From: Erigeron canadensis
Taxonomy: Eukaryota > Streptophyta > Magnoliopsida > Asterales > Asteraceae
DNA: 64,000 bases
Assembly (NCBI RefSeq): GCF_010389155.1
Contig: NC_057765.1
Location: 21,160,270 to 21,224,269 of the forward strand
Direction: 5' to 3'
Position numbers and translations under genes: made by a program
Part shown: in pieces, positions 22,375 through 56,155 of the stretch
Numbering within the stretch: position 1 is the stretch's first letter
Layout: each line of letters starts with the position of its first letter
Notes under the pieces: model-generated
What the model was told of the DNA's origin: nothing
The model's database searches: none
Seen by the model: the letters and a program-made list of their open reading frames with translations, nothing else

Positions 22375-24207
22375 ATGTCTTCAAGAGAGGCTTTGGCTCT
22401 AGGTTCGGATGGAAGACCTCCTGTGTTGTTTAGAGGATCTTACCCTCTATGGAAGAAAAGATTTCTGAATTGGATTGATGGACAAAAGAATGCAAAGAAC
22501 ATCAGAAAGTCTTTGAAAGATGGTCCTGAAATTCTCAAAAACCCAGTGAATAATGAACCTCTTCCGGAAGAAAGCTGGAATGTTGAGCAGAAAAATCGTG
22601 TGGAGGCTGATCAAATGTCCATTGCTTATCTTTATCAAGCACTTTCGGATGATATATATTGCAATGTGGACTCATATTAAACTGGAAAGGATATTTGGGA
22701 TGAGGTTGAAAAACAAATGGAAGGTTCTGATGTTTCTAACACCATAAGGTTGTCAACTGTTTTGAACATGTGTGAAACATTCAAACAGCAGAAAGGAGAA
22801 CCTCTCAATGATGTCTACATCAGATTTTGTAATATCATCAATGAACTGAGGAAAAATGATGTCAAATGAACAAACATGGAGTTGAACATCAAGTTCATCA
22901 AGAATCTTGAACAAGAGTGGCAAGTTTATGGGACTTACCTGAACTAACAAGCAGACTTTGGGAACTTGACGATTCACACTTTGTTTGAAAAATTAACATT
23001 GAACACTGATCAAGTTCTAAAGACTCAAAAGATGAAAGAGGAAACTGTTCATTCTGACCCACTGGCTCTTGTTGTTGAAAAGAAGTCTTCAAGAGGTTCA
23101 AGGAAAAGCAGAGTTAAACTTGAAACTGATTTGGAGGTAAGTGATGTAAGTGATCCTGAACTAGATGAAAAGGACCTTGAGATGTATAAAGAGTTAGCTT
23201 ACTTCACAAAAGCTTTCAAGAAGAAACCTACCAACAATCAGCTTCGGTCTTCCTCAGTTTCATCATATGCCAAGAATGCAAGTGTTCCTAAGTTTGAGAC
23301 CTACAAGGAACCTGTTAGGGAAAAGAAGTTTGATATTGAGAAAAAGTTTGAAAGGAAAGTCTTGGAAAAGAGGAATGGGGATAGAAAGTGCTATAATTGT
23401 GGGATTCCTGGTCATATTGCCACAGAATGTACCAAACCTTGTCAGAAAAATTCAGAGTACTACAAGTACAAACTCATGTTGGCAAAACAAGAAAAAAGTG
23501 GGATTGCTCTTCTAGCTGAGGATGACAAATGGCTTCATCTCACTAATGATGAGACTGATGAACTGGCAGCAAATGTGTGCTTCATGACGAAGATCAAGAA
23601 GTCAAAGGAACTTGATAATGAAGCTGCAGATTCTACTGAAGAGAACGATGAGGTAATCATAATTCCCAAGAAACTTTTAGGTTTTTACATTGATAAAAGT
23701 GAAGCAGCTATTCAAGAAGGTAAAAAGAAAAGCAAAAAGATTTCAAAAATAAACAACGATTTGAAAGAAAAATACCAAATTCTACTCAATTTTCAAGTTA
23801 AGTTTGATCTTCTTCAAAAAGAATTTGATAATTTGAAATCTGAAAAAGCTGCAGTCACTTTTACTCCAAATTCCAAGCTTCATCTTGAGAAACAAGAACT
23901 TGAAACAAAAGTTCTTGAATTAAACAAGATCATGAAACAATTGGAAGTCGAGAAGACAAATGAGATGCTTCGGGCAAATGCTTTGGTTGAGGACATAGAG
24001 TCATTAAATGTCAAATTGAATGAGTCTACCCCTGGGTTGAAAGAAATGGAAGATCAAATTTCTAACCTAAAATATGATTGTTGTATAAAAGATTCTCTTT
24101 ATCAACAACTTGAAAAGAAAAATGAGGAACTCAAAACTAAAATAGATTTTTATCAAAAAAAAGTTGTACAAGCTAAATTGAACTTATCAACAAATCTATT
24201 TGAATAG
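22375..24207 (+). pseudogene. gag: A2 gag with zinc knuckle and coiled coil, cut by element C
   Basis: The start is the ATG at 22375 (MSSREALALGSDGRPPVLF), the standard Gag N-terminus of this lineage and of C. One frame spans the gene with three in-frame stops (22678 TAA, 22867 TGA, 22945 TAA). Domains are the capsid-like helical region, 'FGNLTIHTLFEKLTLNTDQV', a basic stretch, a CCHC knuckle CYNCGIPGHIATEC (about 23390-23431), a 'LLAEDDKWLHL' acidic segment, then a long coiled coil to 24204. The junction with element C follows shortly after the TAG at 24205-24207. A donor-like GAG|GTAATC sits at 23650-23658 in phase 0, at the position homologous to the donor in C. Confidence 0.8.
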
Positions 24208-24580: not shown

Positions 24581-25667
24581 AAAACATCATTGTGATTCGA
24601 TCCATAACTAAATTTAGTCACAGATTCATCAAAAAATCAAAATCAAAAAGTTTTTTTTGTTCGTCATTTTCTCTTCACTGTTCTTCGAAATTTCACCTCA
24701 CAAATCACATAAAATCACAGATATTTGTTCACCAATAGATTCCTGATAGTTAAAAACATAATCCTGTCAAGTTTCAAGTTCTAATTCGATCTAAATCTCG
24801 AGTTTGAATTTTAGAGTTTTAGCGCGAATTTTCGGGATTCGAATTGGTTGTGTTTTGTGTTGAATTTTGTTCGTAGATGTGTAGCTGAGGTGAAAACAAT
24901 CAGTTTGCAAGTTAATTCAAGTTCTAACTCCTAGTAAATCAAAAGTATTGAAGCTTTTTGAAGTCGTTAATGGAGTTTGTGTGTGAAACTGATGTTCTGA
25001 TGAAGAAGATGACAATAGAACGATCTTGGCTAGGATGATCTTCACAAGATCGTCTCAGCCTTTAAACTTCTCATTTTTCATTCTAAGTGGATTGTGGCTT
25101 GTAGGACGATCCTCACAAGATCGTTCTGACAAGTGGTGTGTGGTGTAGTGTTTTTTTGTGGCTAATTAATCCGCAAGGATTGGTTTGGTCAATTCAAACA
25201 CTTGGAAAGTGTTTACATTTAAAAGTTTTAAGGAAAGAAAGCTTGGACGATCTCAACAAGACCGTCCCAGCACACTGAACCTAGGATGATCTTGCCAAGG
25301 TCGTCCCAGTTCCTTTGAACACCGTCCCAGTTCCCTTGTATAGTACATTGGTGTGTTTTGGTTGATCATTTGAAGTTGTTGTGATTTGGAATCACACACT
25401 TATTGGGTAACTGATCTTATTGATTGGTTTTGCTCAAATTTCTTTCATTCCATTACATACTATTGCTCTGTCCAATTCTTTCCAAAATACTTGGAAAAAT
25501 TCTTCATTTCCACAAATATACAGGACGGTCTTCAACAAGATCGTTTCACTTTTCATTCTCAAACCCTAAAACGATCTCACCAGGACGATTCTCTCTAAGA
25601 TCGTCCCAATTCCTGTTTTACCTTCAACTCTTAATTCAATTCAAGTTTCAAATCAAATCAATTTCAA
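24581..25667 (+). repeat. Leader of element C with a hairpin array
   Basis: About six units combine an AGGACGATCTT arm with an AAGATCGTCCCA arm: about 25017-25060, 25104-25130, 25251-25280, 25292-25318, 25520-25550 and 25569-25610. The arms are complementary, so each unit can fold as a hairpin, and the sequence is unrelated to the arrays in A2 and B. Copies occur in the order primer site, array, gag. No open frame of interest was seen. The stretch from 25487 on is repeated at 42786. Confidence 0.7.
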
Positions 25668-25826
25668 TTAGCTTCTCGTGAAGCATTGGCTTTGGGTTCA
25701 GATATAAGACCTCCAGTTCTCTACCGTGGTTCCTATGGACTATGGAAGAAAAAAATTAATGGACTATGTGGAAAGTCAACCAAATGGTCATATACTTAAA
25801 GATTCCATTCTTAATGGACTTGCAGT
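25668..25826 (+). pseudogene. gag: C gag N-terminus, interrupted by element B
   Basis: Begins with the Gag segment SREALALGSDIRPPVLYRGS, homologous to A2 gag at 22378. The start codon is changed: TTA here and TTG in the repeated copy at 42967. A frameshift occurs near 25755 in an A-rich run. The frame is broken at 25826 by the LTR of B, and the 5 bases before it (25822-25826, GCAGT) are the target duplication. The gene resumes at 43810. Confidence 0.8.
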
Positions 25827-26510
25827 TGTAGATGCAGATTCGTTGTGACAATCTAAACATACATTTGATTATTGTTTATGTTTTAGGAACTATGTTTGTA
25901 ATCATTTAAATAAGAACTTGTGTTGATATTTAATGATTACAGTTGGACTTCAATATTATATCTGTTTGTGTTTTATATTGTGTTTGTGTGTTATATATTG
26001 TTTTGCAGGTACAAGAACATAGAATCAAGGTTTATAAGTGTAATAGTACACTTAAACGGTGATTGAATGTTATGTACGAGTCAAACAAAGGACCAAAGGC
26101 ACGTCCCTCGTGCTGACGTCATAAACACATGAGATTACCCTCGTGCTGACGTCAGCACGAAGTGTATTGGTTATTGTTAATTACGGGCCTAATACGTAAT
26201 TAAGGTCGAAGCCCACATGAACCCAATACCAATTAGTATAAATACAAGACCTAATCTACGAAATTAGGTTAATCGTTTCGAATCGTTTCTAATCCTTTTA
26301 GATCTTAGTGATTATACACGAATGAAGGTTATTTGTTCCTTCGTGTGATCTCCTACACGAACCACAAGCCTTGTGCATCTCCTTGGGTTGGTTAATTACT
26401 TATTAATCAACAAAAGGCAATAGTAATCTAGTAATCTCAAGAGGATTCCGCACTCTTGACATAACGAATCACATCTTATTACGATCCACGCAACAATAAG
26501 GCACCTTACA
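25827..26510 (+). repeat. 5' LTR of element B
   Basis: The 684-bp LTR starts TGTAGATGCAG and ends CCTTACA. Its upstream 5 bases GCAGT match the 5 bases that follow the solo LTR copy at 43809. It contains the perfect 20-bp palindrome TCGTGCTGACGTCAGCACGA at 26141-26160, a partial copy at 26108, and a TATA box at 26237-26244. The core TGACGTCA is the classic plant bZIP (C-box/CRE-type) site, so bZIP control is a reasonable inference. Confidence 0.85.
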
Positions 26511-26512
26511 AG

Positions 26513-26525
26513 TGGTATCAGAGCC
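26513..26525 (+). other. Primer binding site of element B
   Basis: TGGTATCAGAGCC, complementary to plant initiator tRNA-Met, two bases after the LTR. Confidence 0.9.
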
Positions 26526-26896: not shown

Positions 26897-28577
26897 ATGA
26901 TGACTATACCAGCTACCACAAACTCACCTTATGCCCTACTTATCAGCCAGATAATCATGCACGATCATGAGGTTGGTCGGGGTAATACACCTCCAAAGCT
27001 TTTCCGTATGGAAAACTATTGGATGTGGAAAAGACGTTTTGAAGACTACATTCGTCTCACCGACATGGAAATGTGGCTTGTGATAACTCAAGGTTTTGAT
27101 TGGCCTTTGTATGGGAAGAATGGAGTGATCGGTAGGTATACTTATGCTGATATGCCGATTGAAGAACGTAAAAGATACGCAATTGAAGGATAGGCCTTAT
27201 CCACTCTTACTATGGCCTTACCTCAAGATAGTGTACATTTGTTCAAAAAGTACACTACTTCAAAGGATTTATGGGACCCTCTTGAAAGATATTGTGAGGG
27301 CGATGTAACCTTGAAGAAGAATCGTATCAAACTCCTGAAGCGCCAGTATGAAACCTTTAATGGACTGAAAGGAGAATCTCTTGATGAGATTATTATTTGA
27401 TTCAGTCATTTGACCACTGAGCTGTCGTACTTTGAGGTTGTTTATCCTCAAACTGAGCTAGTTGATAAGTTTTTAGACTCATTGCCTAAGACATAGACTG
27501 ATTATGTTCATCAACTTCAAGATGAACAGGAATACAGTACATGGGACTTTGAAAAGGTAGTTTCCAAGCTGAAGAACATAGACATGAAGAGAAGAATTAA
27601 AGATACTCACTCGGATTTCACACAAGATCCATCTTTATATCATTCTAAGTCTGTTCATTTAGCAAGCTCTAGCTCGGGAAACAATGCATTTCTAAGTGGT
27701 GCAGAAGCTACACCAATAGTAGATGCTGAAGGTATTGCTAGATATGTTGCTTATGACAATACACATTTGAATGTCAAGAGCAATGTACAATCTTTTCATT
27801 CTATGCCAATGAGTATGAGTTCTGCAGAAGGAAGACTGAGTGTTTACTCAGCCTTTTGTAATGCTCATGAAGCATTTATCGGAGGAAAGATTACTGATCC
27901 TGTAGTAATTGATGAGAATTACAATCAAATAGATCCTGATGATTTGGAAGAAATGGATCTACAATGGCAGCTAGCTATGCTCACTATTAAGGTCAGAAGA
28001 TTCACTCAGAGAACTGGGAGACCTATAGGTAATGGCACTAAAGGCTTTGACAAATCCAAGGTGAAATGTTATAACTGCGATGGATTTGGTCATTTTGCAA
28101 GAGAGTGTCAACGACCTAAGAGGATTGATATAACCGTTGCTGGTCGTCAAAATTACAATCAAGGCAGTATTACTCCGAGTAATCATAAGACGCAAGCAAT
28201 GATTACATATCCGGCTACTCCACAATAGCCAGTTTCGTCACCATTTTCGGAGTCAAAGGCTGTTGTTGTTCAGAATCCAGATGGTACTTATATGATGAGG
28301 TAGCTGCAACAATTGATTATGTTGTATACTCAAGTGAAAAAGTGCATCTGAGATAGTTCAGAAGAATGTATGTAATGTTGCTGAGACCGTAAGATCTGAG
28401 AGTGAACAAATGACAGCAGTAAAAGCATCTAAAGAAAAGGAAGAGTCATCGAGTCCTGTTGATGACATTTCTATGAAGAGCATTGAAGAACAAATGAAGA
28501 ACTTCGTGATACCTAAAGGTATGACAACTGAAGACTTTGTTACATACATGGCAGATTGCAAGGCTGCAGATCAGAAG
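26897..28577 (+). pseudogene. gag: B gag, first coding segment up to putative splice donor
   Basis: The ATG at 26897 is colinear with the D start at 56528. It encodes the copia Gag domain ('PPKLFRMENYWMWKRRFEDY', 'DMEMWLVITQGFDWP') and the CCHC knuckle CYNCDGFGHFARECQR. It is broken by TAG at 27191, TGA at 27398, TAG at 27494 and TAG at 28226, and by a 54-bp deletion near 28292 and a 1-bp loss near 28339 relative to D. Several stops are C-to-T or G-to-A changes, as expected from deamination of methylated DNA. The segment ends at 28577 with CAGAAG|GTATCT, a phase-0 donor-like site after which D jumps straight to protease. Confidence 0.8.
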
Positions 28578-30047
28578 GTATCTTGTTCTTTATCTTTTAT
28601 AATTAACGTGTGTAAAATGATGTCAGATTTAAAACTTGAGGTGTTTATTTTGAATAAGTCATTTATTAACTTAACTAGTCAGAACAACATGTTTAAAAAG
28701 GAAAACGACTCTTTGTTTGCCAAAATTTCTGGATTGGTAAAACAAGAAAGTCTTTATCAAGATAAGATTCATGCATCTGATAAGGATATTCTTGCATTAA
28801 AAGAAAAACTAAAAGAGTCAGTTCTGATGGAAAAAGTGGGAAATGAACAATACGCTCAACTAACTGAAGACTTTTCTAAAAAGGAGAAAGAATTGGTTAA
28901 CGCACAGTTGGAGATAGTTAAGCTTAATACAAGACTAGATCAAATTAGGGGATCTGATTTAATAAGATCAATGCAGATGCAAAAACCTGTACCACGGAAT
29001 TCACAAGATAAAAGTGTTTTGGGTATGAGTTATAATGAGGTTAGAGGTCCATTCAATGATAATTATACTGAGTCTCTAACACAGCTTACTGAAAAGATCG
29101 ATATTGGTGAAATTGGTCCAATCGTTTCAGAAAAACAAAATGTTGATCCTAAGACCCCTAAAAGCTCTAAAAGCTCAATTGATAAAATTAAAAAGCTTAA
29201 CAAGAAACATAAGCTTGAAAGTTCATTTGTTAAACTAGTGGATCCTAAGAATAGAGTTTATGATGCTAGTGCTTCTAAAGGATCTAGTCAAGTAAATTCA
29301 ACTTGTCCTGTCAATAAGAACATTAAATGTTTTACAATGAAAGGAAGTGATACTGTTTTTACATCCAATGAAATTGATTTTGAAAAGATAGATCATGACA
29401 AGATTGATAAAGTATGGAATAAGGATGAATCTACGTCTAGTGGAGTCCCCTTAACTCCATATAAGACTCATAAGAATTCTCAAAAGAAGGTACATTTTTC
29501 GGATAAAAATGAGTCAACTGGTTTATCAAAAGAGGAGTCAGCCACAATTGAACTTAAGGAATGTTTAGGCATGACTTCAGCTGAGTTTGATGTTAAAGCT
29601 AAGAAAGCAAGAGCTAAAAAATCTTGTTTCTATTGTTATGAAGTAGGACATGTTTATAGTTGTTGTCCAAATAGGAAACGAAGATGTCCAGAAAAGGGTA
29701 TGTCTTCTGGAGGATCTAGTGACTCAGATATTGTTGCTCATAATAATAGATCTAAGACTCCAAAACAACAGGGACCTTCACAGAATACTACTTCTAGTAG
29801 TGTAAGTCCGAGTCGTTCTCGTACACCTCAAAGGAGTAATTCACCTAGGAAGATGGCTCAACAAAATCGATCTCCTCCTTCTAGAATTAATAGTTCGTCT
29901 AAATTCTATGATCGATTAGGGAGTCAACCTAGATTTGGTACTCACTCACCAAGGAATTCACCTCCTAAGACTCGTTTCACTTCACCTAAGAAACAGTCTG
30001 TGACACCATCTTCATCCAAGGCTCTATTACAGAGCAATGGATATTAG
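28410..30047 (+). CDS. B Gag extension: coiled coil, second zinc knuckle, RS/SP-rich tail
   Basis: An open frame of 545 residues. The first about 56 residues are the end of the Gag exon ('MKSIEEQMKNFVIPKGMT'). The remainder lies within the intron-like segment 28578-30142. It has a long coiled coil with Glu/Lys-rich heptads (about 28620-28970), a Ser/Lys-rich linker, a zinc knuckle CFYCYEVGHVYSCC (about 29625-29666), and a tail rich in SP, SR and RS dipeptides (about 29800-30010, e.g. SPSRSRTPQRSNSPRK). The stop at 30045-30047 lies before protease, so unspliced RNA would make Gag only. The segment is absent from D and A1. RNA binding and oligomerisation are inferred from composition. Unlike the rest of B gag it has no internal stop. 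Confidence 0.7.
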   Translation: MTAVKASKEKEESSSPVDDISMKSIEEQMKNFVIPKGMTTEDFVTYMADCKAADQKVSCSLSFIINVCKMMSDLKLEVFILNKSFINLTSQNNMFKKENDSLFAKISGLVKQESLYQDKIHASDKDILALKEKLKESVLMEKVGNEQYAQLTEDFSKKEKELVNAQLEIVKLNTRLDQIRGSDLIRSMQMQKPVPRNSQDKSVLGMSYNEVRGPFNDNYTESLTQLTEKIDIGEIGPIVSEKQNVDPKTPKSSKSSIDKIKKLNKKHKLESSFVKLVDPKNRVYDASASKGSSQVNSTCPVNKNIKCFTMKGSDTVFTSNEIDFEKIDHDKIDKVWNKDESTSSGVPLTPYKTHKNSQKKVHFSDKNESTGLSKEESATIELKECLGMTSAEFDVKAKKARAKKSCFYCYEVGHVYSCCPNRKRRCPEKGMSSGGSSDSDIVAHNNRSKTPKQQGPSQNTTSSSVSPSRSRTPQRSNSPRKMAQQNRSPPSRINSSSKFYDRLGSQPRFGTHSPRNSPPKTRFTSPKKQSVTPSSSKALLQSNGY

Positions 30048-30142
30048 ATCGAATTGATCATTAGAAATGAATTCGGAAAACCTAAACCTTAAAAGGTTTG
30101 GGTTCCCTTCAGAAACTAACCATCTTATCGTCTGATGTGCAG
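28578..30142 (+). other. Putative phase-0 GT-AG intron between B gag and protease
   Basis: Bounded by AAG|GTATCT at 28578 and TGATGTGCAG|GAA at 30142. Alignment with D places the D junction (58264/58265) exactly at these bases: 'gatcagaag' before and 'g(a/g)agaacca' after, with 1565 bp absent. Both edges are between codons, so removal fuses gag to protease in frame and removes the gag stop. An insertion in B is less likely, since there is no target duplication and the segment carries a second zinc knuckle in the gag frame. Confidence 0.7.
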
Positions 30143-31915
30143 GAAGAACCAAGGAAGCCTATTAGTCTTTGGTATGTTGACAGTGGATGCTCTCGGCACA
30201 TGACAGGGGACAAGAATGTTTTTTCCAATTATGAAGATGTAAATGGTTCATATGTTAGTTTCTCAGGTCCCAAGGGCGGCAACATCTCGGGCCAAGGTGA
30301 TGTTGTCAATGGGAAGATTACGTTGGAGAAAGTCAATTATGTGGAACAGTTAGCACATAATTTATTAAGTGTTTCTCATATTTGTGACAAGGGTAACAAT
30401 GTCCATTTTAATGAGAAAGAAGCACTTATATTGAAACCGGGATATGTTATTCCGGAAGACTGGATCCTGCTAAAAGCTCCTAGGAAGAAAGACATCTATG
30501 GCCTTGTGTTAGGTGTTGATGATCCAAAGGAGTCTGTTTGCTTGTTATCAAAAGCAAACGAATCTGAATCTTTACTATGGCATAGAAGAATGGGACATAT
30601 CAATTTCCAAAAAATTAATGACATTGTCAAACATGGTTTGGTTGAAGGCGTTCCAATGAAACGGTTTGGAATGGAAGACAAATGTGTACCTTGTCTGAAA
30701 GGTAAACAACAAAAGTCTACACATAAACCGAAACAAGAAAATTCTATTGCCAATCCTTTCGAGTTACTTCACATGGATTTATTTGGTCTAGTGAATGTAA
30801 GAAGTATCGGTGGGATGTACTACTGTTTGGTGGTTACTGATGATTACTCGAGATTCTCATGGGTAATCTTTCTTAAATCGAAAGATGAAACTCCGCAGAT
30901 TTTGATAAATTTCTTTGTCAAAACTGAAAACATTTATGGAGTTCGTGTTAAGAGAATCAGGAGTGACAACGGAACTGAATTCAAGAATAATGTGATGGAT
31001 GTCTTTTGTTTGTCAAAGGGAATCCAACATCAATACAGTTCTCCGTATGAACCACAACAGAATGGAGTTGCTAAAAGAAAGAATAGGACTCTAATCGAGA
31101 CAGCCAGAACTATGCTTGCAGATTCAGGGCTTCCTACTATGTTTTGGGCGGAAGCGGTGAATACAGCTTGTCATATTTTAAATAGGGTTACTGTAGTTAA
31201 GCGTCATAATAAGACATGTTATGAGCTTCTACATAAGAAGAAATCGAATTTACAGAATGTTGAACCATTTGGTGTACCGTGTACTTTCTTGAAGTATCTA
31301 CCTCAGTCAAAGTTTGATTCAAAGGTTGAAGAGGGGTTTCTCATGGGTTATAAACCGGGAACATCAATTCGACGGGTTTACAACAAACAGACTGGCAAAG
31401 TTGATTTGGGAACAAATGTCAAGATTGTCAGTCATAAGCCCGCTATTCATTCTGGAAATGGCAAAAACTTCGATTATGATAGTGTATTTAGTTCACTACA
31501 TGGTCCTGATTCTTATTCAGATCCTGAGACAGTTGATGATGTGATTATTTTAAGAGATCACATGGATAATACTCCTATATCTCCGCCTACTCGAAATGTC
31601 GATACTACTCCAACCAACGTTCAATCTACTACTGATGTTGATGAAAATGGTAAGGACAAGAATAAGACACCAGATTCAGATAATAGTGAACCCGAGAACA
31701 CTTCACCACTTACTCCATCAAAGGTTACATTGCCTGATGATGATCGTATTTCTGAAGAATCGGAAGATGATTTTAGCTCTCCTGAGTTTCAGATTAGAAC
31801 AAATTTAGGAGAAAGTCTGAATGTTGATTTGGTTCCTCAATATCGAATTAATAAGGATCATCTAGTTGATAATATTCTTGGAAATGCTACAAAACCTGTT
31901 CGAAATAGAAATTAG
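30143..31915 (+). pseudogene. pol: B protease and integrase
   Basis: Protease VDSGCSRHMTGDK has its catalytic Asp intact (codon 30179-30181). The integrase zinc segment LLWHRRMGHINF ... CVPCLKGKQ is followed by core segments LLHMDLFGLV, RSDNGTEFKN and NGVAKRKNRTL. In the last one the catalytic Glu of the DDE triad is replaced by Lys (codon 31073-31075, AAA for GAA; D has Glu). The open frame runs to 31913-31915, where CAG became TAG. The protein is about 95% like D by eye. Protease could be active in principle, but integration is expected to be lost. Confidence 0.85.
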
Positions 31916-33055
31916 TTGAATAAGGATCTGACTAGTTTGTTTTGTGAAGTGAAAGACACTGGATTGTTAACTGAGTGTTTATATTCTGGTTTCATTTCAC
32001 AAGTAAAACCTAAGAATGTTAAGGCAGCACTTCAAGATCCATGTTGGGTTGAAGCTATGCAAGAAGAATTAGCTCAATTTGAAAAACTTGGAGTTTGGGA
32101 GTTAGTAGATGTGCCTAGAGGTAAAGAACCGATTGGAACTCGTTGGGTATATAAATGCACTCGAAATGACAAAGGGATCGTTACTAGAAATAAAGCACGT
32201 TTGGTTGTTCAGGGGTTTGCACAACGAGAAGGATATGACTATAACGAAACTTTTGCACCAGTTGCTAGGATTGAAGCTATAAGGTTATTTTTAGCCTATG
32301 CAAGTTTCAAAGGTATAAAGGTGTATCAGTTAGACTGGTGAATAAAGAATCCTTTCCAAGGGAAAGATGAACTTGTGGATGCAACTTATTATCGTGCTAT
32401 TATTGGCTCATTGATATATCTGACGACTTCACGTCCAGATATTATGTTCGCCGTTTGTCTTTGCGCTAGATTTCAAGCTAGTCTGAAAGAGTCACATTTG
32501 ACTGCAGCAAAACGTATTCTACGTTATCTTAAGGGAAACCAAGGGCTTGGTCTATGGTATCCTATGGGAGGAACGTTTGATTTTGTTGCATATACTGATT
32601 CGGATTTTGGCGGTTATAACAATGACAGAAAGTCTACGACTGGAGGTTGTCAGTTGTTAGGAGGAAGATTAGTATCGTGGCAGTGCAAGAAGCAGACATG
32701 TGTTGCTCAGTCTTCATGTGAGGCAGAGTATATGGCTGCTGGTAGCTGTTGTTCCCAGGTATTGTGGATTCAACAACAACTTCGTGACTACGGTATGGAT
32801 TTTCTTGATACTCCTATTAGAATAGACAATAAGTCAGCTGTAGACATTACAAATAACCCTGTCATGCATAAGGTCACCAAGCATATTGATATTAGACATC
32901 ATTTCTTGCGTGATTGCGCCCAAAAGAAGTTAATTCATTTGGAAAAGGTTATAACCGATGATAATTTAGCTGATCTGTATACCAAAGCATTTGATAAGAC
33001 TCGATTTGAGAAGTTAATTCTTCTCAATGGGATGAAGAATGCTGATTCATATTAA
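31916..33055 (+). pseudogene. pol: B reverse transcriptase (core deleted) and RNase H
   Basis: The N-terminal RT segment runs from 'EAMQEELAQFEKLGVWEL' to 'IKVYQLD' (32332). The sequence then jumps, after a short unrelated stretch, to 'DATYYRAIIGSLIYLTTSRP' (32375). The D equivalent keeps about 500 bp between these points, including YVDD. The catalytic RT core is therefore gone. RNase H (YTDSDFGGYNNDRKSTTGG, SSCEAEYMAAGSCCSQVLW, 'KHIDIRHHFLRDCAQ') is complete to the stop at 33053-33055. B must depend on other elements for reverse transcription. Confidence 0.9.
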
Positions 33056-42785: not shown

Positions 42786-43125
42786 ATACTTGGAAAAATT
42801 CTTCATTTCCACAAATATACAGGACAGTCTTCAACAAGATCGTTTCATTTTTCATTCTCAAACCCTAAAACGATCTCACCAGGACGATTCTCTCTAAGAT
42901 CGTCCCAATTCTTGTTTTACCTTCAACTCTTAATTCAATTCAAGTTTCAAATCAAATCAATTTCAATTGGCTTCTCGTGAAGCATTGGCTTTGGGTTCAG
43001 ATATAAGACCTCCAGTTCTCTACCGTGGTTCCTATGGACTATGGAAGAAAAAAATTAATGGACTATGTGGAAAGTCAACCAAATGGTCATATACTTAAAG
43101 ATTCCATTCTTAATGGACTTGCAGT
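42786..43125 (+). repeat. Second copy of C leader and gag N-terminus
   Basis: Aligns without length change to 25487-25826 (four differences by eye). It includes the last hairpin units and the gag start region (TTG at 42967). It ends with the target duplication GCAGT at 43121-43125. The join at 42786 lies inside the B 3' ORF and has no LTR or TSD signature. Confidence 0.9.
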
Positions 43126-43809
43126 TGTAGATGCAGATTGGTTGTGACAATCTAAACATACATTTGATTATTGTTTATGTTTTAGGAACTATGTTTGTAA
43201 TCATTTAAATAAGAACTTGTGTTGATATTTAATGATTACATTTGGACTTCAATATTATATTTGTTTGTGTTTTATATTGTGTTTGTGTGTTATATATTGT
43301 TTTGCAGGTACAAGAACATAGAATCAAGGTTTATAAGTGTCATAGAACACTTAAACAGTGATTGAATGTTATGTACGAGTCAAATAAAGGACCAAAGGCA
43401 CGTCCCTCGTGCTGACGTCATTAGCACATGGGATTACCCTCGTGCTGACGTCAGCACGAAGTGTATTGGTTATTGTTAATTACGGGCCTAATACGTAATT
43501 AAGGCCGAAGCCCACACGAACCCAATACCAATTAGTATAAATACAAGACCTAATCTACGAAATTAGGTTAATCGTTTCGAATCGTTTCTAATCCTTTTAG
43601 ATCTTAGTGATTATACACGAATCAAGGTTATTTGTTCCTTCGTGTGATCTCCTACACGAACCACAAGCTTTGTGCATCTCCTTGGGTTGGTTAATTACTT
43701 ATTAATCAACAAAAGGCAATAGCAATCTAGTTATCTCAAGAGGATTCCGCACTCTTGACATAACGAATCACATCTTATTACGATCCACGCAACAATAGGG
43801 CACCTTACA
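43126..43809 (+). repeat. Solo B-type LTR in element C gag
   Basis: 684 bp, TGTAGATG...CCTTACA, flanked on both sides by GCAGT (43121-43125 and 43810-43814), so it is a clean solo LTR. It differs from 25827-26510 at about 17 positions. It contains the palindrome TCGTGCTGACGTCAGCACGA at 43440-43459 and a TATA box at 43536-43543. Confidence 0.9.
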
Positions 43810-43814
43810 GCAGT

Positions 43815-44899
43815 TCATCGCCATCCCACTACTGGTGCAATACTGACTCTGATCTTTTGAATGCTGAACAAAAAGATCGAACAGCTGCAGATAATAGAGC
43901 TAGATCATGCTTATACAAAGCTCTACCAGATGAAATCTATGGCTCAGTTGATTTATATGATACAGCCAAGGAAATATGGGATGAGGTGGCAAGACAGATG
44001 GAAGGAGCTGACGTGACTTCAACAATTCGATTGACCAATGTTTTGACTGAGTTTGACAACTTCCCCAAATTGCCAAATGAATCTATTGAAGCTGTCTACT
44101 ACAGATTCTGCAATGTCATAAATGCACTGAGGAAGAACAATGTCAAGAAAATAGAGATTGAGTTAAACATCAAAATCATCAAAGCTCTTGGTCCAGAATG
44201 GGAAGATTTTGGAACACAGATCAAGCAACATCAAAATCTGACCAAGTTCACCATTCATACTCTTTATGAATCTTTCAAACTCAATGAAAACCAAGTTCTA
44301 AACAAAGCTTCATCAAGCAAAATGCCAGAAGTTGTATCTTCTGATCCTTTGGCATTGATTGTTGAGAAGAAAGTATCTGAAGCTCTTAAGAGGCAAATGG
44401 TAGATGAACTATATCAAGCTCTTGCCGCAGTAACAAAGCATTTCAAGAGAAAATTTTACAAAGCGAGGCCAGCAAACAACAATCTCCGCATTTCTTCTAC
44501 AAGCGCATTTCCCAAGAAGGATCACTATCATGCTAAGGGTTAGGAACAAGGTGAAGCAAGTGGATCAAAGCATGGTGAGAAGTAGGAAGCTAATGAGAAA
44601 CAAGTTGATGAGAAGGGTAAGGCATCAGACAAAAAGTGCTACAATTATGGTATTCCCGGCCATTTTCAATTGATTGCAAGCAACCTTGAAAGCGGAACTA
44701 TGAGTATTACAAGCAGAAGATGCTGTTAGCCAAACAAGTTGAAGTAGGACATGCATTACTCGCTGAAGATGACAAATGGCTATTACTCTCTGATGACGAG
44801 GATGAAGATCTCTCTGCTAATGTTTGCTTTATGGCAAGGTTGGCCAAGGACAAAGTCTTTGAAGCAGAAAGCACTGATGATGAATACCCAGATGATGAG
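43815..44899 (+). pseudogene. gag: C gag continued, up to putative splice donor
   Basis: Capsid region continuing the fragment at 25668/42967: 'AEQKDRTAADNRARSCLYKA', 'DTAKEIWDEVARQMEGADVT', 'TIRLTNVLTEFDNFPKLPNE', then a basic stretch. Stops occur at 44541 and near 44584. The zinc knuckle at about 44635-44675 is damaged: the second Cys is Tyr (CYNYGIPGHF) and a base is lost. It resumes in the 44720 frame with LLAEDDKWLLLSDDEDEDLS. It ends at 44899, where element E inserted. The host bases around the duplication read GATGAG|GTAAAT, a phase-0 donor-like site matching A2 at 23653. Confidence 0.8.
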
Positions 44900-45807
44900 T
44901 GTTATGGGTGAAATTTCAGATTTCATTATCTTGGGACCTCAAGATCATGGACCTTTAGGATCTTGACACGCCTTGACGAATTACTAACGATAAACTTCAA
45001 GTATTGTTTCTATGAGATGCAGGTAACTTGATATTTATCACAAGGGAAATATCTCTAACGGTACAAAAGAGATTCAACACATGTCTTATTTGATCAACAC
45101 GCAAAGAAGACTTAGTCCAGCATCATAATCGGACTTCAAGAGGAATTTAGCATGGGGAGAATATCTTCAAACGGCTACAATATCAGTCAAGATATGCTCC
45201 AACGTTCACCAAATGAAGACCAGGAAGATCCCTGTAATTTCGGAAAATTAGTTACTAGCTTGCTCTATATAAACGAGGACCTGATCGATCATAGGTAATA
45301 CAATGTTACACAGACTCACATATTTACCTGCTTATTTTCTCTGCTCAAACTTGTAAACAACCAACACACTTTTCTTTACTTAGAAAGATCGATCAACTCG
45401 CTCTATCATTGTAACCAATTTACACCGTTAATAAAAGAACAAGGTAGGGACGATTGCTTCCTCCCGGGGTTTTTATTCCGGCAATCCATAAAGGATTAAG
45501 GGCTTTTCCTTGATAACAAATCTCGGTGTTCTTTGTTCCTTTCTCTTTATTTTCCGCATTTATTTACGTTTATCTTTCTTTATCTTGCTTAATCTATCTT
45601 ATATTTAATTATATAGTTATTTGCGAAATCTTTTGACTACCTTCTTTTGTTTAAGTCGACATAATCTTGATTTATCATACTTATTTTAAACGCATCTTTG
45701 AATCTAAACCAATTTTACAAGCCCTTAACCTCACGAACGAAAGTTTGCTTACATAATTGATCTAAGTCTTCAAGATTGATTATCTTAGATAATTTTTGAC
45801 CAAAATA
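44900..45807 (+). repeat. 5' LTR of element E
   Basis: Starts TGTTATGGGTGAAATTTC and ends GACCAAAATA (CA mutated to TA). A TATA box, tatataaa, is at 45266-45273. 908 bp against 913 bp for the 3' copy. Confidence 0.9.
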
Positions 45808-45810
45808 ATT

Positions 45811-45828
45811 TGGCGCCCACCGTGGGGC
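45811..45828 (+). other. Primer binding site of element E
   Basis: TGGCGCCCACCGTGGGGC lies three bases after the LTR, a form usual for Tat/Athila-type gypsy elements and unlike the tRNA-Met site of the copia elements here. Confidence 0.8.
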
Positions 45829-45903
45829 AAAAGGTGCTTTCGATCTGATAAAAAATCTTTTTGATTTTCATAAATCTCGATTTTTCAAAATCTAATACCG
45901 AAG

Positions 45904-48036
45904 ATGTCGACTCAACTAACTAATTCTTCGCAAATTACTCCTGTTCTTTCTTCTCATTTGCCTCCTCTACCTCCAGGACGTGTTTTTTATCGAAGAAACA
46001 GGAACAATGTTGCTCGAACTTCTGCCCAGGAAAAAGGAAAAGAGCCAATGGATTCATTCCAGATCCCAGACTTATCTAGAGAAATTCCGGCAGGAAACTC
46101 ATCTCAGGAGAATGCAAGATCAAGATAGACTCAAAGAAGGAGTTTTTACGACGATTATGGCAATCCGGATCCCTACAATACCAGATCTAGGAATGTTAAC
46201 TCTGAAGAACTGCCTGACTTGTTTACATTTTGCAGAATCTTGATAAGACAATTAAGACTAATCAAGAATATAATCAGGCACAATTCAAAATTCTTGAGTC
46301 AAGGGTTTTTGAAAACAGACCACTGATGACTCCTAGGAATTTGTTTTCAACGACTCCAACTGCTCCTGAGTCTGCTCCTATTAATACGTCGATGCCAACT
46401 GCGACTCCTAATTTTGGGAGTAATGTTCCGCAAAACACTCATGTTGCTGGAACATCGGCCACCATGAGTGCAGGTTTGAACAATTCTAATTATTTTGCTG
46501 GATCTTTTGCTTTTAAATCCATCGCAGGGACAAGGAGCAAATGATAACATCGCTAGAGAATTTCAGAAGATTAAAGACATGATTTCGAGCGTTCCTGGAT
46601 TTTACAATCCAATTCCTGAAGTCAAACCTGCGTCCTATCTAATCAACAGATATGGCGACAGGATTGCAAACGTAGAAATCCCGAAGAAATTCCAAGTTCC
46701 AAATATGAAACCATATGATGGAACCACTGACCCACAGGAGCATATCGCGCTGTATCTGGAGAAAATGGAAACAGTGCCGATTCCATCAAATTTGAAAAAA
46801 GCTTGCTTATGCAGAAGCTTTGGATCGACACTATCTGGATCAGCTTTAAAATGGCTGCAGAGTTTGCCTCCTCTATCTATTAATTCTTTCGCTGATTTAA
46901 CAAATTTATTTTATAGTCAATTTTCACGCAGTAGGACTTTTGAGAAAGTGACTGATGATCTATATAAAATAATTCAAAAACCGCATGAATCACTTAGAGA
47001 TTTTATGACTAGATTTACAAAAGAATCTCTTAATATTCCTAAATTAGATATGTTGACCGCTATTCAAGCTTTGCAGAAAGGTCTCCATAAAGGATCTAAA
47101 TTCCAGGAAGATCTCATAATGACGCCATGCAGAAATTTAGATGAAGCAAAAGCAGGGCAGCAAGATTTATAAGGCTCGAAGAAAATGAACTTACAACTTC
47201 GAAATTAGATGCCTTATCATATGATCGTCCAAATCGGAAGGCAGAAACCCCGGTGTTTAAACCGAGACACAAACCTTACTCAAGACATGTAGATGATCAA
47301 GTCAATGTCGTTGAAGAAGATGACGGGGTCGAATATCCAACTTTGGCATTATACTGTTTCTCTGTAGGAACTCCTGGCATTATAATGGCGCTTAGAGATC
47401 TTGAAGACAAGGTGAGATGGCCTCAGAAGAAAAATGACGGATACTTCAAGAAGAAAGATCCTAGCCAGTGGTGTGCTTATCATGAAGACTTTGGCCATAT
47501 CACCGAAGATTGCAAGATGTTAAGAAGAGAAATATCCACTTTATTAGCAAAAGGATATTTGACAGAACTCCTTGGAAGGAAGAAGGCCAAAGATGTCGAA
47601 GGCTTGGACTTTTCCAAACCAAAATCAACACAAAAAGCAGACTCCCCACCAGCGAATGCAAAAGTAATTAATACCATCTCTGGGGGATCGGAAGTGTGCG
47701 GGACAACATATTCAGCAGCAAAAAGACTTGCAAAGCAAAGCAAAGCAGATAAAGGAGAAAGAAGTGTGAAGAAAGCATCAATTTCGGACTCAGACATTAT
47801 CTCCTTTGAAGAAGATTTTGATGATATCATGGAACCTCATCATGATGGGCTGGTAATTACTCTTTTTATCGCTAACCATTATGTTCGCAGGATTTTGATA
47901 GATAATGGGAGCTCAATGAATATCCTCAAGCTCCAAACAATAGTAGAAAGCTCCAAGGATTTGGATCCTCATGCCATTGAAAGCTTGGGAATTGCAGATT
48001 TGAAACAGCAAAGAAAATATTTCGCTTGTGGTTAGG
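45904..48036 (+). pseudogene. gag: E gag and partial protease
   Basis: ATG at 45904 (MSTQLTNSSQITPVLSSHLP), with frameshifts near 46127, 46500 and 47172. The Retrotrans_gag domain of Tat type lies at 46550-47171, with 'PKKFQVPNMKPYDGTTDPQE', 'LSGSALKWLQSLPPLSINSF' and 'LYKIIQKPHESLRDFMTRFT'. It is followed by a knuckle-like CAYHEDFGHITEDC (about 47470-47511) and a pepsin-like protease start, RRILIDNGSSMNIL, with the active-site Asp at 47901-47903. Coding ends at a TAG at 48033-48035, and pol enzymes are absent. The remnant resembles the gag-only, non-autonomous gypsy class. Confidence 0.8.
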
Positions 48037-49026
48037 GAAAAGAAACTCCTAGACTCAGCGAAATCCAATTGCAAAGTATCAACCCCTTTGATTCTACTAG
48101 AATAATTGTTGCAGGAACACGACCGGAAGATGACGTCGATACGTCAGAAATAACTAATTAGGGAATTTGGAACCTTTGAAACACAGGGTTTACAAATAAC
48201 AAATTGTTTGATGTTTTGAACAGGTACAAAAATCAGGAAACTCAGCTACGCTAGTAACAACGTGGAACAAGGTCTTCACCTTTTGGCTTTCACGCCAACT
48301 TTTGGTTGGGGGTTTTCACCCTCTCTTACGGTTTGCCCATGTCGCACGTTCATTAATTTCACAGCTGAAGGGTTAAATTCCAAGGTTGTCGAAATTAATT
48401 CTACCGATTATGGATGTCACCATCGATCTCCCGAAATGGCTAACCATGCCACCCATTACACAAACACATACGAAAAGGCTAACCACGCCTCCCAAGCATG
48501 TTCAAGATATTGAAACACCCTCATTATCTTGGACTCCAATGTCCCTATGAGAATATTAAAATTCAGAATTCCCTTCTTAATTTTAATCCCCTCCAAAGAT
48601 CATATCGGTCCCATTTATATTTTATTGCTACAGGAATATAGTGGAACTGACAAACAATTAAGACGCTGGATGCTTGAAGATCACAATTTACAACTGGATC
48701 TTAATTACATATCACAAGGTGCATGTATCTTACCCTATAATTATTACTTTGATTTGATTTATTACTGTTGATATAGTCAAATAAGTCAAGGGTAATAATT
48801 AACTAACATGTGATATCATGCAAACGATTATTTAATTTTCCAATTTTAACCCCATTAACATCATTGATTTTTGGAATCGAAGCAATAAAGATCAAAAGAT
48901 AAATATTTTTCATTAATAACGAAAATATTTACAAAAGATAAAACTACTTGATAGCAGTTACAATCAAAAGAGTTTAAAAATGGGTTCTGGCCTTTGCATT
49001 ATATCCGTCATCGCCCATCAAAAACT
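48037..49026 (+). other. E non-coding 3' region
   Basis: I see no gene on either strand here. One imperfect direct repeat, 'aaatggctaaccatgccacc' / 'aaaaggctaaccacgcctcc', occurs at 48434 and 48475. The right part is the 3' flank of the antisense ORF. Confidence 0.6.
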
Positions 49027-49443
49027 TTACAGAAGAACGTCCCAGTAAAGCTCAGGGTTAATCTCCTTCAACTTATTCAAAATTGACCTAACCCTTTCTA
49101 GTTCCTCTCAAGCCCCTCGGAGTTCTTCCTGCGTTGCGCCAAGTTCGCAACAAATGTCTCTCAAAGCATTGTTGAGAATCTTATTTTTTGCTTCGAAACT
49201 CTTTTTCACCTCCAGACCCATTTCTTTTTCGGTCTCAATGGATTCCCTTAAGATTTGAGTAGGCCTTCCATAGTTTGGATGATCTCATCGTTTATCTTGT
49301 CTTTGGCGATCTATTGTTCTTCGAGATCAGCGAAAGACTGAAATATGAAATAAATAAGTTATAAATAACAAGCAAATAACTTAAGGAAAAAGAAGATTTA
49401 AATATACCTTTTGAAGGAAATCCCCAAAAGATTTTAGAGACAT
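49027..49443 (-). pseudogene. Antisense ORF of element E with a 70-bp intron
   Basis: Minus strand. ATG at 49443, exon 1 of 12 codons to 49408, donor AAG|GTATATTT at 49407, acceptor TTTCAG at 49338, exon 2 from 49337 to a TAA at 49027-49029. The product is about 115 residues with heptad-like Glu/Lys/Leu sequence ('EMGLEVKKSFEAKNKILNNA', 'ELERVRSILNKLKEINPEL'), so a coiled coil is likely. One in-frame TAG near 49311, one lost base near 49255 and a TGA near 49107 show decay. A TATA box lies 65 bp upstream. Antisense ORFs before the 3' LTR are known in Tat-lineage elements; the function is not known to me. Confidence 0.65.
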
Positions 49444-49507
49444 ATTGAAAGTATGGATTTTAAAGAAAAGAAGATTTTTCGTGACTTCAAAAGACTGAGG
49501 GCACTCG

Positions 49508-49519
49508 CTTATATAATAG
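49508..49519 (-). promoter_or_regulatory. TATA box of the antisense ORF
   Basis: On the minus strand the sequence reads CTATTATATAAG, 65 bp upstream of the antisense ATG. It suggests independent transcription towards the interior of the element. Confidence 0.5.
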
Positions 49520-49711
49520 GGTAAAAGGACATGAATGAATCATCGGGTAGTTACCTATCAAGTCAAGACTCTTGGTTATCTTATCTCCATGCGTCTTATC
49601 CTCGGGGTGAATTCAAAAATTAACTCCTTGACTTTGGTCAAAGCGTAGTCCTGAAGATTCAAAATTATTTTGAGCAAAGTTATTTTAAACAAAATTGATT
49701 TTTTATCAAAA

Positions 49712-49726
49712 TAACTTTGGGACAAT
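49712..49726 (+). other. Polypurine tract of element E
   Basis: 'taactttgggacaat' directly before TGTTATGGG at 49727, degenerate but correctly placed. Confidence 0.6.
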
Positions 49727-50639
49727 TGTTATGGGTGAAATTTCAGATTTCATTATCTTGGGACCTCAAGATCATGGACCTTCAGGATCTTGACACGCCT
49801 TGACGAATTACTAACGATAAACTTCAAGTATTGTTTCTATGAGACTATTATGCAGGTAACTTGGTATTTATCACAAGGGAAATATCTCTAACGGTACAAA
49901 AGAGATTCAACACATCTCTTATTTGATCAACACGCAAAGAAGACTTAGTCCAGCATCATAATCGGACTTCAAGAGGAATTCAGCATGAGGAGAATATCTT
50001 GAAACGGCTACAATATCACTCAAGATATGCTCCAATGTTCACCAGATGAAGACCAGGAAGATCCCTGTAATTTTGGAAAATTAGTTACTAGGCTGCTCTA
50101 TATAAACGAGGACCTGATCGATCATAGGATATACAACGTTACACACACTCACATATTTACTTGCTTATTTTCTCTGCTCATACTTGTAAACAAGCAACAC
50201 ACTTTTCTTTACTTAGAAAGATCGATCAAGTCGCTCTATGATTGTAACCTATGTACACCATTAATAAAAGAACAAGGCAGGGACGATTGCTTCCTCCCGG
50301 GGTTTTTATCCGGCAATCCATAAAGGATTAAGGGCTTTTCCTCTATAACAAATCTCGGTGTTCTTTGTTCCTTTCTCTTTATTTTCCGCATTTATTTACG
50401 TTTATCTTTTTTTATCTTGCTTAATCTATCTTATATTTGATTATAAAGTTATTTGCGAAATCTTTTGACTACCTTCTTTTGTTTAAGTCGACATAATGTT
50501 GATTTATCATACTTATTTTAAACGCATCTTTGAATTTAAACCAATTTTACAAGCCCTTAACCTCACGAACGAAAGTTTGGTTATATAATTGATCTAAGTC
50601 TTCAAGGTTGATTATCTTGGATAATATTTGACCAAAACA
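49727..50639 (+). repeat. 3' LTR of element E
   Basis: TGTTATGGG...ACCAAAACA. Followed by the target duplication ATGAG. Confidence 0.9.
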
Positions 50640-50644
50640 ATGAG

Positions 50645-53088
50645 GTAAATCTCGACTCTTCTTTTTCATTGATTAAGGATAAAGAGTCATGTAGATTAGC
50701 TTTGTCAAACCTGAAAACTCATATCAAATCTTTAGCCAAAACAAACAGAAAATTAAAGAGTAGCATTTTATTTTCTAAAAGTGAATTTTCAAAACTTCTT
50801 GAAGAACATTCAAAATTACTTTTTGAACATAATGCTATTAAACAAGATTTTCAAACATACAAAGACAAAATTTTGGTTAAAGAATGTAAGTTGAATGCCT
50901 CTCCTGATTCTAAGTTATTACAAAAATGTCACAATCTTGAAAAGACCATTCATGATCTTAAAAAAGTCAATCAAGATCTTGAAACTCAAAAGACCAATGA
51001 ATGGCTTCGGGCAAATGCTAGACAAATGGATGTTGATATTCTCAATAAAAAGCTCCAAGAAGCTAAACCAAACAATGTTGAACTCGAAAGGAAGATTTCT
51101 GATATAAATCATAATTGTTTTCTAAAAGGCATAGTGAGAATCTTGAAAAACAAGTTGAGGAATTTAAAAAGAATATATTTTTCGATCAAGAAAAGTTATA
51201 TAAAGTTGAACAAAACCTTCTCTTGGATTTCACTGCCTATTTCAACAAGTCAAAAATTGACAAAAAGGATCTTCTTCCCGGGTTGGGATTTGAGAATATC
51301 ACACCATTACAAAAAGCCAAAGAAGAAATTGAACCTTTGTATAATGAAAAATTCCTTCGACTTAGTATGGTACAACAATTTATTCGTCAATTGGATGACA
51401 AATTTGAGATTGATGAAGTTGAGAGGATACCTAAAGATAAATTTTTGGTTAATTATGATGCAATAAATGCTTCGTACAAAACTAAAGAATCTTCAATTTT
51501 TAAATTGGAAAAAATTGCATCAAATTTTCAAAACCAAGAATCTGTCGGTACTCCACCTAAACCAACTAAAATGTATGTTCCAACAACATATTTGGAAAAA
51601 CAAATAGAAGGTTTACAACAAAAGGTGGAATCTCAACAAAATGTTATTAATCACCTCAAGTCTCAAAGTCCGATTTCAGAGGAGAAATGTATTGTTGTTG
51701 ATACTAAGAAAGTTTGTGTGAATGTTTCTACTCAAACTGATCTAAGTGCTTTAGTAGACCATTCTACCCAAACTACCTGTGATTCATCTACAAATTCCTC
51801 CACTCAAACCTTGACTGATTCTCTTGAATGCACTTATCAAAATACTGCTAGTCTTATAGCTGATGATTATGTGCAATCTAATTTATCTGATGAAGAACTT
51901 GCACATAGTTTAATTTTGATATGGTACTTCTATAGGTTTTTCACATGCAATTCAATTGATGAGTTAGTTGTTCACCCTAAGCTTAGTGCTAGTTTATGTG
52001 TTGATACTTCTACTCAGTTTTCTTGTGAGACCAAAGATGTGTCAGTTCAAGTTGACATAATTTCTAAGACTATCCATGATGTGAAGTTGGACACCAAGAT
52101 TCCTGATTTTTCAAAACTTTCAAAAGAATTTGAAACTAATCAACTTTCATTGAAATTTTTCACAAAAGATGATTTTAATAAATTCATGGAGGGAGAATAT
52201 ATTTTTGATTCAGAAACTGAGAAAAAGATTGAATCTACCAAAATCAAAGTTGAAACAAAAGAGGAATCTCAAAATCCATTGTCCAAAGCTCCAACTTCAT
52301 ATTATTCAAAGGAACAAGTTAAGACCAAACTCGTCAAGACTGAACAAAAGACCATTAAGTTAGAACCAAAGATTCCTACCCCGGTTAAACATGTCAAAAA
52401 GGAACAAGCTGAGACCACACCCAGATCAAAGTACACCAAAGTGAAACTTCCAAAAGACTATCCTAATGCTTCTCCTTCTAGCTCTCAATCTAGTTCTTTA
52501 CCTAAGGTGTCTAAGTCAAGCTCAGTTTTGCTAAATAAGGATGCATCTAATGGTACAACTAGATATAGGGATAGATATGGATGGTTCTTTCATGATAAAC
52601 CAAAGAAGCAAGAAGTTTCCTCACCACCAAAAGATTCTAAAAGGATGAAAGTGTTTAAAACCCCTCGTTCTAATCTTCTTAGTTTCAAATCAACAAGTGG
52701 AAAGAGCATAACTAGTGATGCTAAATGGGTTGCTAAAACTTTTGTACCTAAGTCCACTAGTAATCAAATGCATGTTGAGAAAAAGAAGAAAAGACGGAGG
52801 AGAAAGGCTGGTAATAGGAAGAAGGATGTTCCTATTAATTCAAACAATTCATCTTTGTTAAATAATGTTGAATGTGCTAAGGCAAGGCCTTCTGAGCTTG
52901 TGAACAATTTTAATTCATGTACTCGTGTGGTTGATGTGAATGCTTGTAGACGTGTTACTTTTAACTCTCATGTTAATGTTCGTACTTTTTATCCAAATGT
53001 GCTTGTTGATGATGTGCTTGTTAATGCTTATGATGATTCAAAAGCATGTTTGAATGCATTTCCTAAGTATATACCCTGCCTGTCTTAA
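50645..53088 (+). pseudogene. C Gag extension: coiled coil, TQT motifs, basic tail
   Basis: The first part (50645-51118) is a coiled coil continuing the gag frame ('ESCRLALSNLKTHIKSLAKT', 'EKTIHDLKKVNQDLETQKTN'). A frameshift near 51120 shifts to the 51115-53088 frame. There, three STQT motifs lie exactly 12 residues apart (codons at 51730, 51766, 51802), with further STQF and SVQV at about 52012 and 52041. TQT motifs bind dynein light chain 8, and Sirevirus Gag proteins are reported to bind LC8-type proteins, so this is a good lineage marker. The C-terminal part is Lys/Ser/Pro-rich with KKKKRRRRKAGNRKK near 52785-52830, and ends TGA-free at a TAA, 53086-53088. LC8 binding here is inferred. 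Confidence 0.75.
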
Positions 53089-53151
53089 CTAACCACAAAG
53101 GACCCGTCTTCAAGTGGGTACCTAAAGTAGGTTAAATTTCTATGATTGCAG
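50645..53151 (+). other. Putative phase-0 GT-AG intron of element C holding the Gag extension
   Basis: Donor GAG|GTAAAT (GT at 50645, just after the E target duplication) and acceptor 'tttctatgattgcag|gaa' (AG at 53150-53151). Both edges are between codons in the gag and protease frames. Removal would skip the gag stop at 53086-53088 and join gag to the protease frame at 53152. The position and phase are the same as in B although the sequences are unrelated. Confidence 0.55.
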
Positions 53152-56142: not shown

Positions 56143-56155
56143 TGGTATCAGAGCC
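56143..56155 (+). other. Primer binding site of element D
   Basis: TGGTATCAGAGCC, tRNA-Met type, two bases after the LTR. Confidence 0.9.

Follow-up and report, generated by a model that had tools for sequence, protein, structure and literature searches.

What lies between gag and protease in a copia-type long terminal repeat (LTR) retrotransposon when one copy of a family carries 1565 bp at that boundary and another copy nearby carries none of it? The question is raised by a 64,000-nucleotide (nt) stretch of the forward strand of Erigeron canadensis (assembly GCF_010389155.1, contig NC_057765.1, positions 21,160,270 to 21,224,269; hereafter the window), which was searched against its own genome (426 Mb in 356 contigs). 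Two elements in the window, B and D, are copies of one copia family, each with a 5' LTR and a primer binding site. The extra segment of B is, with good confidence, a spliceosomal intron that is also coding sequence, and its splicing would separate a long Gag from a Gag-Pol fusion. The parts of both elements are as follows, where RT stands for reverse transcriptase and dN/dS for the ratio of nonsynonymous to synonymous substitution.

25827 to 26510, + strand: 5' LTR of B (TG..CA, 684 bp), matching the 5' LTR of D and 43126-43809, with the primer binding site next to it.
26513 to 26524, + strand: primer binding site of B, TGGTATCAGAGC, read directly from the sequence and taken here to be of the initiator-Met tRNA type.
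26897 to 28577, + strand: putative exon 1 of B, with N-terminal Gag and the first zinc knuckle (28067-28108), from Pfam on the D homologue.
28578 to 30142, + strand: candidate intron of B, GTATCT...TGTGCAG, 1565 bp, the C-terminal part of the long Gag, from its edges, the alignment, genome-wide counts and dN/dS.
30143 to 32335, + strand: putative exon 2 of B, with protease, integrase and the start of RT, in phase 0 and in a frame offset by 2 (that is, -1) from the long-Gag frame.
55456 to 56140, + strand: 5' LTR of D, the putative spliced-form copy, from comparison with B.
56528 to 60199, + strand: gag-protease-integrase of D in one open frame of 1223 amino acids, from the open reading frame (ORF) and its Pfam domains.
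58264 to 58265, + strand: exact position of the proposed exon-exon junction of D, from comparison with B and from the alignment and count of joined copies.

At its left edge the segment reads CAGAAG/GTATCT (GT at 28578-28579) and at its right edge TGTGCAG/GAAGAACC (AG at 30141-30142), while D reads CAGAAG/GGAGAACC at 58264/58265, so that the two copies differ by 1565 bp with a codon boundary at either side. A first-pass annotation of the window had described just such a difference, beginning with GT, ending with AG and falling between codons, and its coordinates proved exact. Pfam orders the domains of D as Retrotran_gag_2, zf-CCHC, Pol_BBD, gag_pre-integrs and rve, with RVT_2 in the next frame piece, which is the copia-type gag and the gag, protease, integrase, RT order of Ty1/copia elements; the primer binding site of D starts at 56143. 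In B, gag is broken by in-frame stops and a deletion of roughly 50 bases, and RT has lost ~510 bp at 32335-32362, with 26 bp in place, relative to D.

Counting the edges and the junction across the genome, with up to 1 mismatch allowed and reversed patterns as controls, separated two classes of copies. The donor junction was present 438 times, the acceptor junction 434 times, and the exact joined junction AG/G 41 times, 24 of them perfect; since the controls gave 0 for donor, acceptor and joined searches, these counts are far beyond chance. Joins with 1-30 extra bases, searched genome-wide as exact patterns that are blind to deletions taking flanking bases too or leaving more than 30 bases, numbered 0. 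Joined copies accordingly account for 41 of the 475 copies detected by the two patterns (8.6%). This comparison had been proposed in the first-pass annotation, which expected two classes sharing the same edges and named ragged ends as the contrary sign; the classes do share their edges, and within the reach of these patterns ragged ends were not seen. Alignments were then made of B with 39 fetched copies (with the insert as query, the best 40 of 687 first-look candidates scored, at 94-100% identity) and of D with 39 fetched joined copies, giving 40 of each class.

28578 to 28583, + strand: candidate 5' splice donor GTATCT after AAG, G in 39/40 and T in 40/40 aligned copies.
30141 to 30142, + strand: candidate 3' splice acceptor AG, A in 39/39 and G in 37/39, with one further copy deleted here.

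The donor GT is intact in 39/40 aligned insert-bearing copies, and both edges are conserved across copies as for a spliceosomal GT-AG intron. There was no gap at the junction in 39/40 joined copies and a 6-base deletion in the remaining one. Among the matches listed, 31 donor and acceptor pairs were formed (one acceptor paired with two donors), and their inserts belong to two length classes of ~1565 and ~1193 bp with identical edges: 14 measure 1549-1576 bp, 14 measure 1120-1201 bp, and 3 are intermediate. The commonest short insert, at 1193 bp, is 372 bp below 1565, a multiple of three. Two of the joined copies, L057 and L082, have nearly identical flanks, with many small gaps in L082, and their likeness reflects either a recent copy or a duplication.

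Trees of the flanking sequences show that the joined state arose repeatedly. They were built from the 40 insert-bearing and 40 joined copies, leaving out flanks below 150 bases, so that 78 (5' flank), 77 (3' flank) and 79 (combined flanks) of the 80 rows were kept; the insert-bearing rows were chosen by closeness to B, 40 out of some 434, and are hence a biased sample. On the combined-flank tree the insert state needs 17 changes (bootstrap range 17-19), well-supported branches force at least 7, and a single origin was recovered in 0% of bootstrap trees. The 5' flank alone likewise needs 17 changes (at least 5 forced), and the 3' flank alone needs 20 (at least 4 forced). Some clustering is real, as shuffled labels need ~26 changes, so that part of the joined copies must have a joined ancestor or share a single parent; clustering is only weak when the 3' flank is taken by itself, with 5 to 11 of 500 shuffles as low. 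An apparent sister pair of B and L067 was rejected as an alignment artefact from two different deletions, and the leading columns of both rows were blanked in the final trees. Identical GT/AG edges with repeated origin are the outcome that would be expected from reverse transcription of spliced RNA.

Because of the bias towards copies closest to B, I made two genome-wide nearest-relative checks. The best 40 places for the pol of D (1935 bp) comprised D, 2 other joined copies, 12 insert-bearing copies and 25 places in neither list. The second query was the gag (349 bp) of L080, a member of a joined group that looked basal in the trees; its best 40 places comprised L080, 3 other joined copies, 14 insert-bearing copies (11 recognised by a donor in the list, 3 by an acceptor in the list lying at the proper distance) and 22 places in neither list, so that insert-bearing copies stand among its closest relatives. 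Places in neither list are most likely insert-bearing, because every joined copy within 1 mismatch is in its list, while insert junctions were judged among the matches listed, 100 per search. A sister family, A, lies at 423-3838 in the window (67% amino acid identity to D in protease-integrase, ~70% nt identity). When the pol tree was rooted with family A, insert-bearing copies branched off first, at low support and with only 2 joined rows in the tree; 3 of 4 newly fetched joined copies matched too short, and L024 gave no match.

Three further features bear on the segment as coding sequence.

29625 to 29666, + strand: second zinc knuckle, CFYCYEVGHVYSCC, inside the candidate intron, from sequence and translation.
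30045 to 30047, + strand: TAG private to B, the other copies having TGG (36/40) or TGA, also a stop (3/40).
30116 to 30120, + strand: CTAAC with the long-Gag stop TAA inside, branch-point-like by comparison with the consensus; C 39/40, T 40/40, A 39/40, A 40/40, C 37/39.

The insert is under purifying selection as protein. Over all pairs of the 40 copies, which are not independent, its dN/dS was 0.31 in the coding frame and 0.78 in each other frame, the comparison regions giving 0.32 (end of gag) and 0.39 (protease). In 9/40 copies the frame stays open through 513 codons, from the donor up to the stop at 30117-30119, and the remaining 31/40 have a stop or shift before it. This long-Gag stop, TAA in 39/40 copies and TGA in 1/40, sits 23 nt ahead of the acceptor AG end; the earlier statement that the segment carries the gag stop thus holds for the family at 30117-30119, and not for the TAG at 30045-30047. 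The coiled coil, second zinc knuckle and RS/SP tail that had been read in the segment were all recovered, the first as a coiled-coil-like stretch by inspection, and the frame closes with an RS/SP-rich tail and a final KVWVPFRN. As the insert length is 2 mod 3, the unspliced frame reaches Pol only by frameshift. A protein homology search with the insert ORF in a 5.8-billion set returned nothing at E <= 0.001 among the 7986 top word-sharing candidates scored, comparison with PDB by sequence returned nothing at E <= 0.1, and the three Pfam matches on the insert were all under their cut-offs.

The same layout, with spliced-form copies of its own, was found in F2, a distant copia family in the window with 39-42% amino acid identity to D in protease-integrase.

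44747 to 44899, + strand: putative exon 1 end of F2 (GATGATGAG), from the join in L111, with a nested LTR element next to it.
44900 to 50639: nested LTR element within F2, with target duplication ATGAG and LTRs at ~44900-45809 and 49727-50639 that are 95% alike.
50645 to 53151, + strand: candidate intron of F2, GTAAAT...TTGCAG, the long-Gag C-terminus, with a stop before the acceptor.
53152 to 54364, + strand: putative exon 2 of F2, protease and integrase in phase 0, from comparison with D and Pfam.
23653 to 23658, + strand: candidate donor GATGAG/GTAATC in a related gag fragment, F, in phase 0 and at the position equivalent to the F2 donor.

The long Gag of F2 ends in FKWVPKVG and a stop, followed by TTGCAG/GAAATAACC with protease in a different frame. 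TTGCAG is kept in 20/21 F2 rows (TTGTAG in one), and 19/21 rows have a protease-frame stop within 20 codons before the AG end, 17 of them after the Gag stop. The donor, GATGATGAG/GTAAAT at 50645, became readable through the nested element with its ATGAG target duplication, and it lies in phase 0 between acidic and coiled-coil-like parts. Donor and acceptor together predict a spliced junction, GATGAG/GAAATAACC, which is absent from the window copy and which was found three times in the genome, as a perfect match, at 1 mismatch and at 2 mismatches, while the control gave 0. A fourth match (3 mismatches) was discarded, since it reads GTGCAG/ and looks like an unspliced acceptor. Two of the three matches were read: in L111, F2 exon 1 (44747-44899) is joined exactly to exon 2 (from 53152) with the frame kept, and L112 shows this exact join too. 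With 894 F2 acceptors at up to 2 mismatches, the 3 joined copies give a share of ~0.3%, compared with 8.6% in the B family. The F2 share could be an underestimate, as it assumes a single exon-1 end. The gag-to-protease frame offset is +1 in F2 and -1 in B; as these offsets differ, splicing is the route that would give the same fusion in both.

Taken as a coding intron, the segment would allow one element to make two products. Unspliced RNA would yield a long Gag, consisting of N-terminal Gag, the first zinc knuckle and the intron-coded part up to the TAA at 30117-30119, while spliced RNA would read AAG/GGA in phase 0 and fuse a short Gag to protease-integrase-RT. Incomplete splicing would then determine the relative amounts of Gag and Gag-Pol, and spliced RNA that was occasionally packaged and reverse-transcribed would leave intronless copies such as D, complete with LTR and primer binding site. 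The first-pass annotation had suggested that D is such a reverse-transcribed spliced copy, and this suggestion gains support from the repeated rise of the short class among the long class and from the F2 prediction that held. Anatomy and selection together argue for a switch between Gag and Gag-Pol; both RNAs are presumably made and translated, and their ratio is probably important. With non-discriminating packaging, a share of 8.6% would be in keeping with spliced RNA being the minority form, although later amplification of joined copies also contributes to this figure. Since the intron encodes a conserved portion of Gag, the Gags made from the two RNAs should differ in structure, a clear role of splicing that can be tested.

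Several observations weigh against a coding intron with this function. The donor GTATCT lacks the consensus G at +5 and is not strong, and the segment is not T-rich, with 30% T overall as compared with 26% and 30% in the flanks; its first 100 bases have 46% T. Within the insert, 101/192 fourfold sites are invariant, and the conservation of the donor is no more than coding constraint gives, while constraint is weaker in the C-terminal stretch 29751-30116 (dN/dS 0.56). Family A looks intronless in 40/40 best matches, in a ranking that favours contiguous copies. Ahead of the junction, 32/40 B-type copies have 19 open codons in the protease frame (fewer in 5, more in 3), overlapping the end of the long Gag by ~31 nt, and 2/21 F2 rows are without a protease-frame stop near the acceptor. 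Finally, homology between the B insert and the F2 long Gag is unconvincing: blastp gave E 0.006, with the low-complexity filter and composition correction off, and hhalign gave E 0.11 at a probability of 0.5%.

The open protease frame is the basis of the alternative that survives best, in which the segment is spliced yet Pol is translated from unspliced RNA through a -1 ribosomal frameshift in the short overlap ahead of the TAA, the spliced copies being by-products. I regard this as unlikely. Both the 19 open codons with their ~31-nt overlap in the 32/40 B-type copies and the open frame in 2/21 F2 rows would suit it, but a canonical X XXY YYZ slippery heptamer was not seen on inspection of the B overlap, and in 17/21 F2 rows the protease frame is closed downstream of the Gag stop, so that a shift within Gag would miss Pol. 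Moreover, the offset in F2 is +1 and not -1 as in B. Stop, acceptor and phase-0 fusion are common to the B and F2 families, and the frameshift geometry is not.

It is less probable again, and indeed very unlikely, that the family was first intronless, like A and D, and that B gained the segment by insertion or domain capture, with recombination mixing the two states later. Recombination of co-packaged RNAs would scatter the states over the tree, and both the intronless appearance of family A and the spliced-only groups that look basal with midpoint rooting point in this direction. Against it, the segment starts with GT, ends with AG and holds a branch-point-like motif, and inspection revealed no target duplication at the edges beyond the shared AG/G. 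The combined-flank tree forces at least 7 changes and the single-flank trees 5 and 4, for which exchanges on both sides of the junction would be needed repeatedly, the basal-looking spliced group has insert-bearing copies among its closest relatives, and the A-rooted pol tree starts with insert-bearing branches, albeit with low support and only 2 joined rows. In addition, this layout recurs in F2, together with spliced copies of that family. An origin of the short copies by DNA deletion across the 3-bp AGG common to both edges is barely credible, since this microhomology and the 6-base deletion at the junction in 1/40 joined copies stand against 41 exact joins with 0 carrying 1-30 extra bases (flank-removing deletions and remnants of more than 30 bases escaping the patterns), repeated origins in the tree, and exact F2 joins that use different GT/AG edges.

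The coding intron thus remains the preferred reading, and it invites a wider one, offered here tentatively as rather less than an even chance: that a coding gag/protease intron is an old, shared expression switch of a copia group, in which the genome RNA is both long-Gag message and Gag-Pol precursor and packaging hardly discriminates. If so, past splicing and packaging could be read, as from a fossil record, in the share of spliced copies (8.6% in the B family, ~0.3% in F2), and spliced copies would have founded the intronless lineages, among them A, whose ancestor may have been such a copy. How LTR retrotransposons achieve their large excess of Gag over Pol is a standing question, and dozens of natural spliced copies would allow splicing and reverse transcription to be traced in genomic sequence by itself.

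As a separate observation, the 340 bp upstream of the B 5' LTR (25487-25826) are repeated at 42786-43125, ~98% alike, and followed by a second LTR (43126-43809) with GCAGT on either side. One possibility is that the insertion site was duplicated and a solo LTR is present, another that two haplotypes were assembled in tandem.

Among the matches listed in searches of open-licence papers, no report of a gag/protease intron in a copia element was found. Introns that are themselves coding are found within the coding sequence of plant genes, where they are called exitrons; the B intron differs in carrying the stop that would end one of two products. Among copia elements, the part of PMC6317226 consulted here gives the Bianca lineage two ORFs with a gap of 172 bp on average and describes no intron in it, whereas B has overlapping long-Gag and protease frames with 23 nt from Gag stop to junction. 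Sunflower elements have spliced isoforms with truncated Gag, according to the relevant section of PMC7730604. The barley element BARE1 has a facultative GT-AG intron near the gag/pol boundary that has been proposed to alter the proportion of Gag to Pol, but this intron is 104 nt long and its removal creates a stop, so that the spliced RNA encodes Gag only (PMC3735527). EVD/ATCOPIA93 of Arabidopsis and copia of Drosophila resemble what is proposed for B in that splicing separates Gag from Pol, yet there it removes protease or pol to leave a Gag-only RNA (PMC12786077, PMC3735527). These accounts agree with the remark in the first-pass annotation that the reported copia cases work in the opposite direction to B. 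A rule of the BARE1/EVD type, with spliced RNA for Gag only, does not appear to describe the present family, in which 39/40 joined copies run gapless from gag to protease and D is one open frame.

The closest precedent, which the first-pass annotation did not mention, is the intron of Ogre, a Ty3/gypsy element of the Tat lineage, whose removal from a subset of transcripts makes the whole polyprotein possible (PMC6317226). It separates gag-pro from RT-RH-INT, and the region that holds it measures 274 bp on average. The B family is not itself of the Ogre type, as its domains are those of copia elements (Pfam) and its intron would precede protease rather than follow it, lying between gag and protease, measuring ~1.2-1.6 kb, holding a conserved part of Gag and being accompanied by many spliced copies. 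Nevertheless, its sequence and the 41 joined copies, genomic evidence throughout, fit an Ogre-like rule by which spliced RNA would encode the full polyprotein and unspliced RNA the first ORF. If this is true, copia elements can splice in the direction of Ogre and not only in that of BARE1 and EVD.
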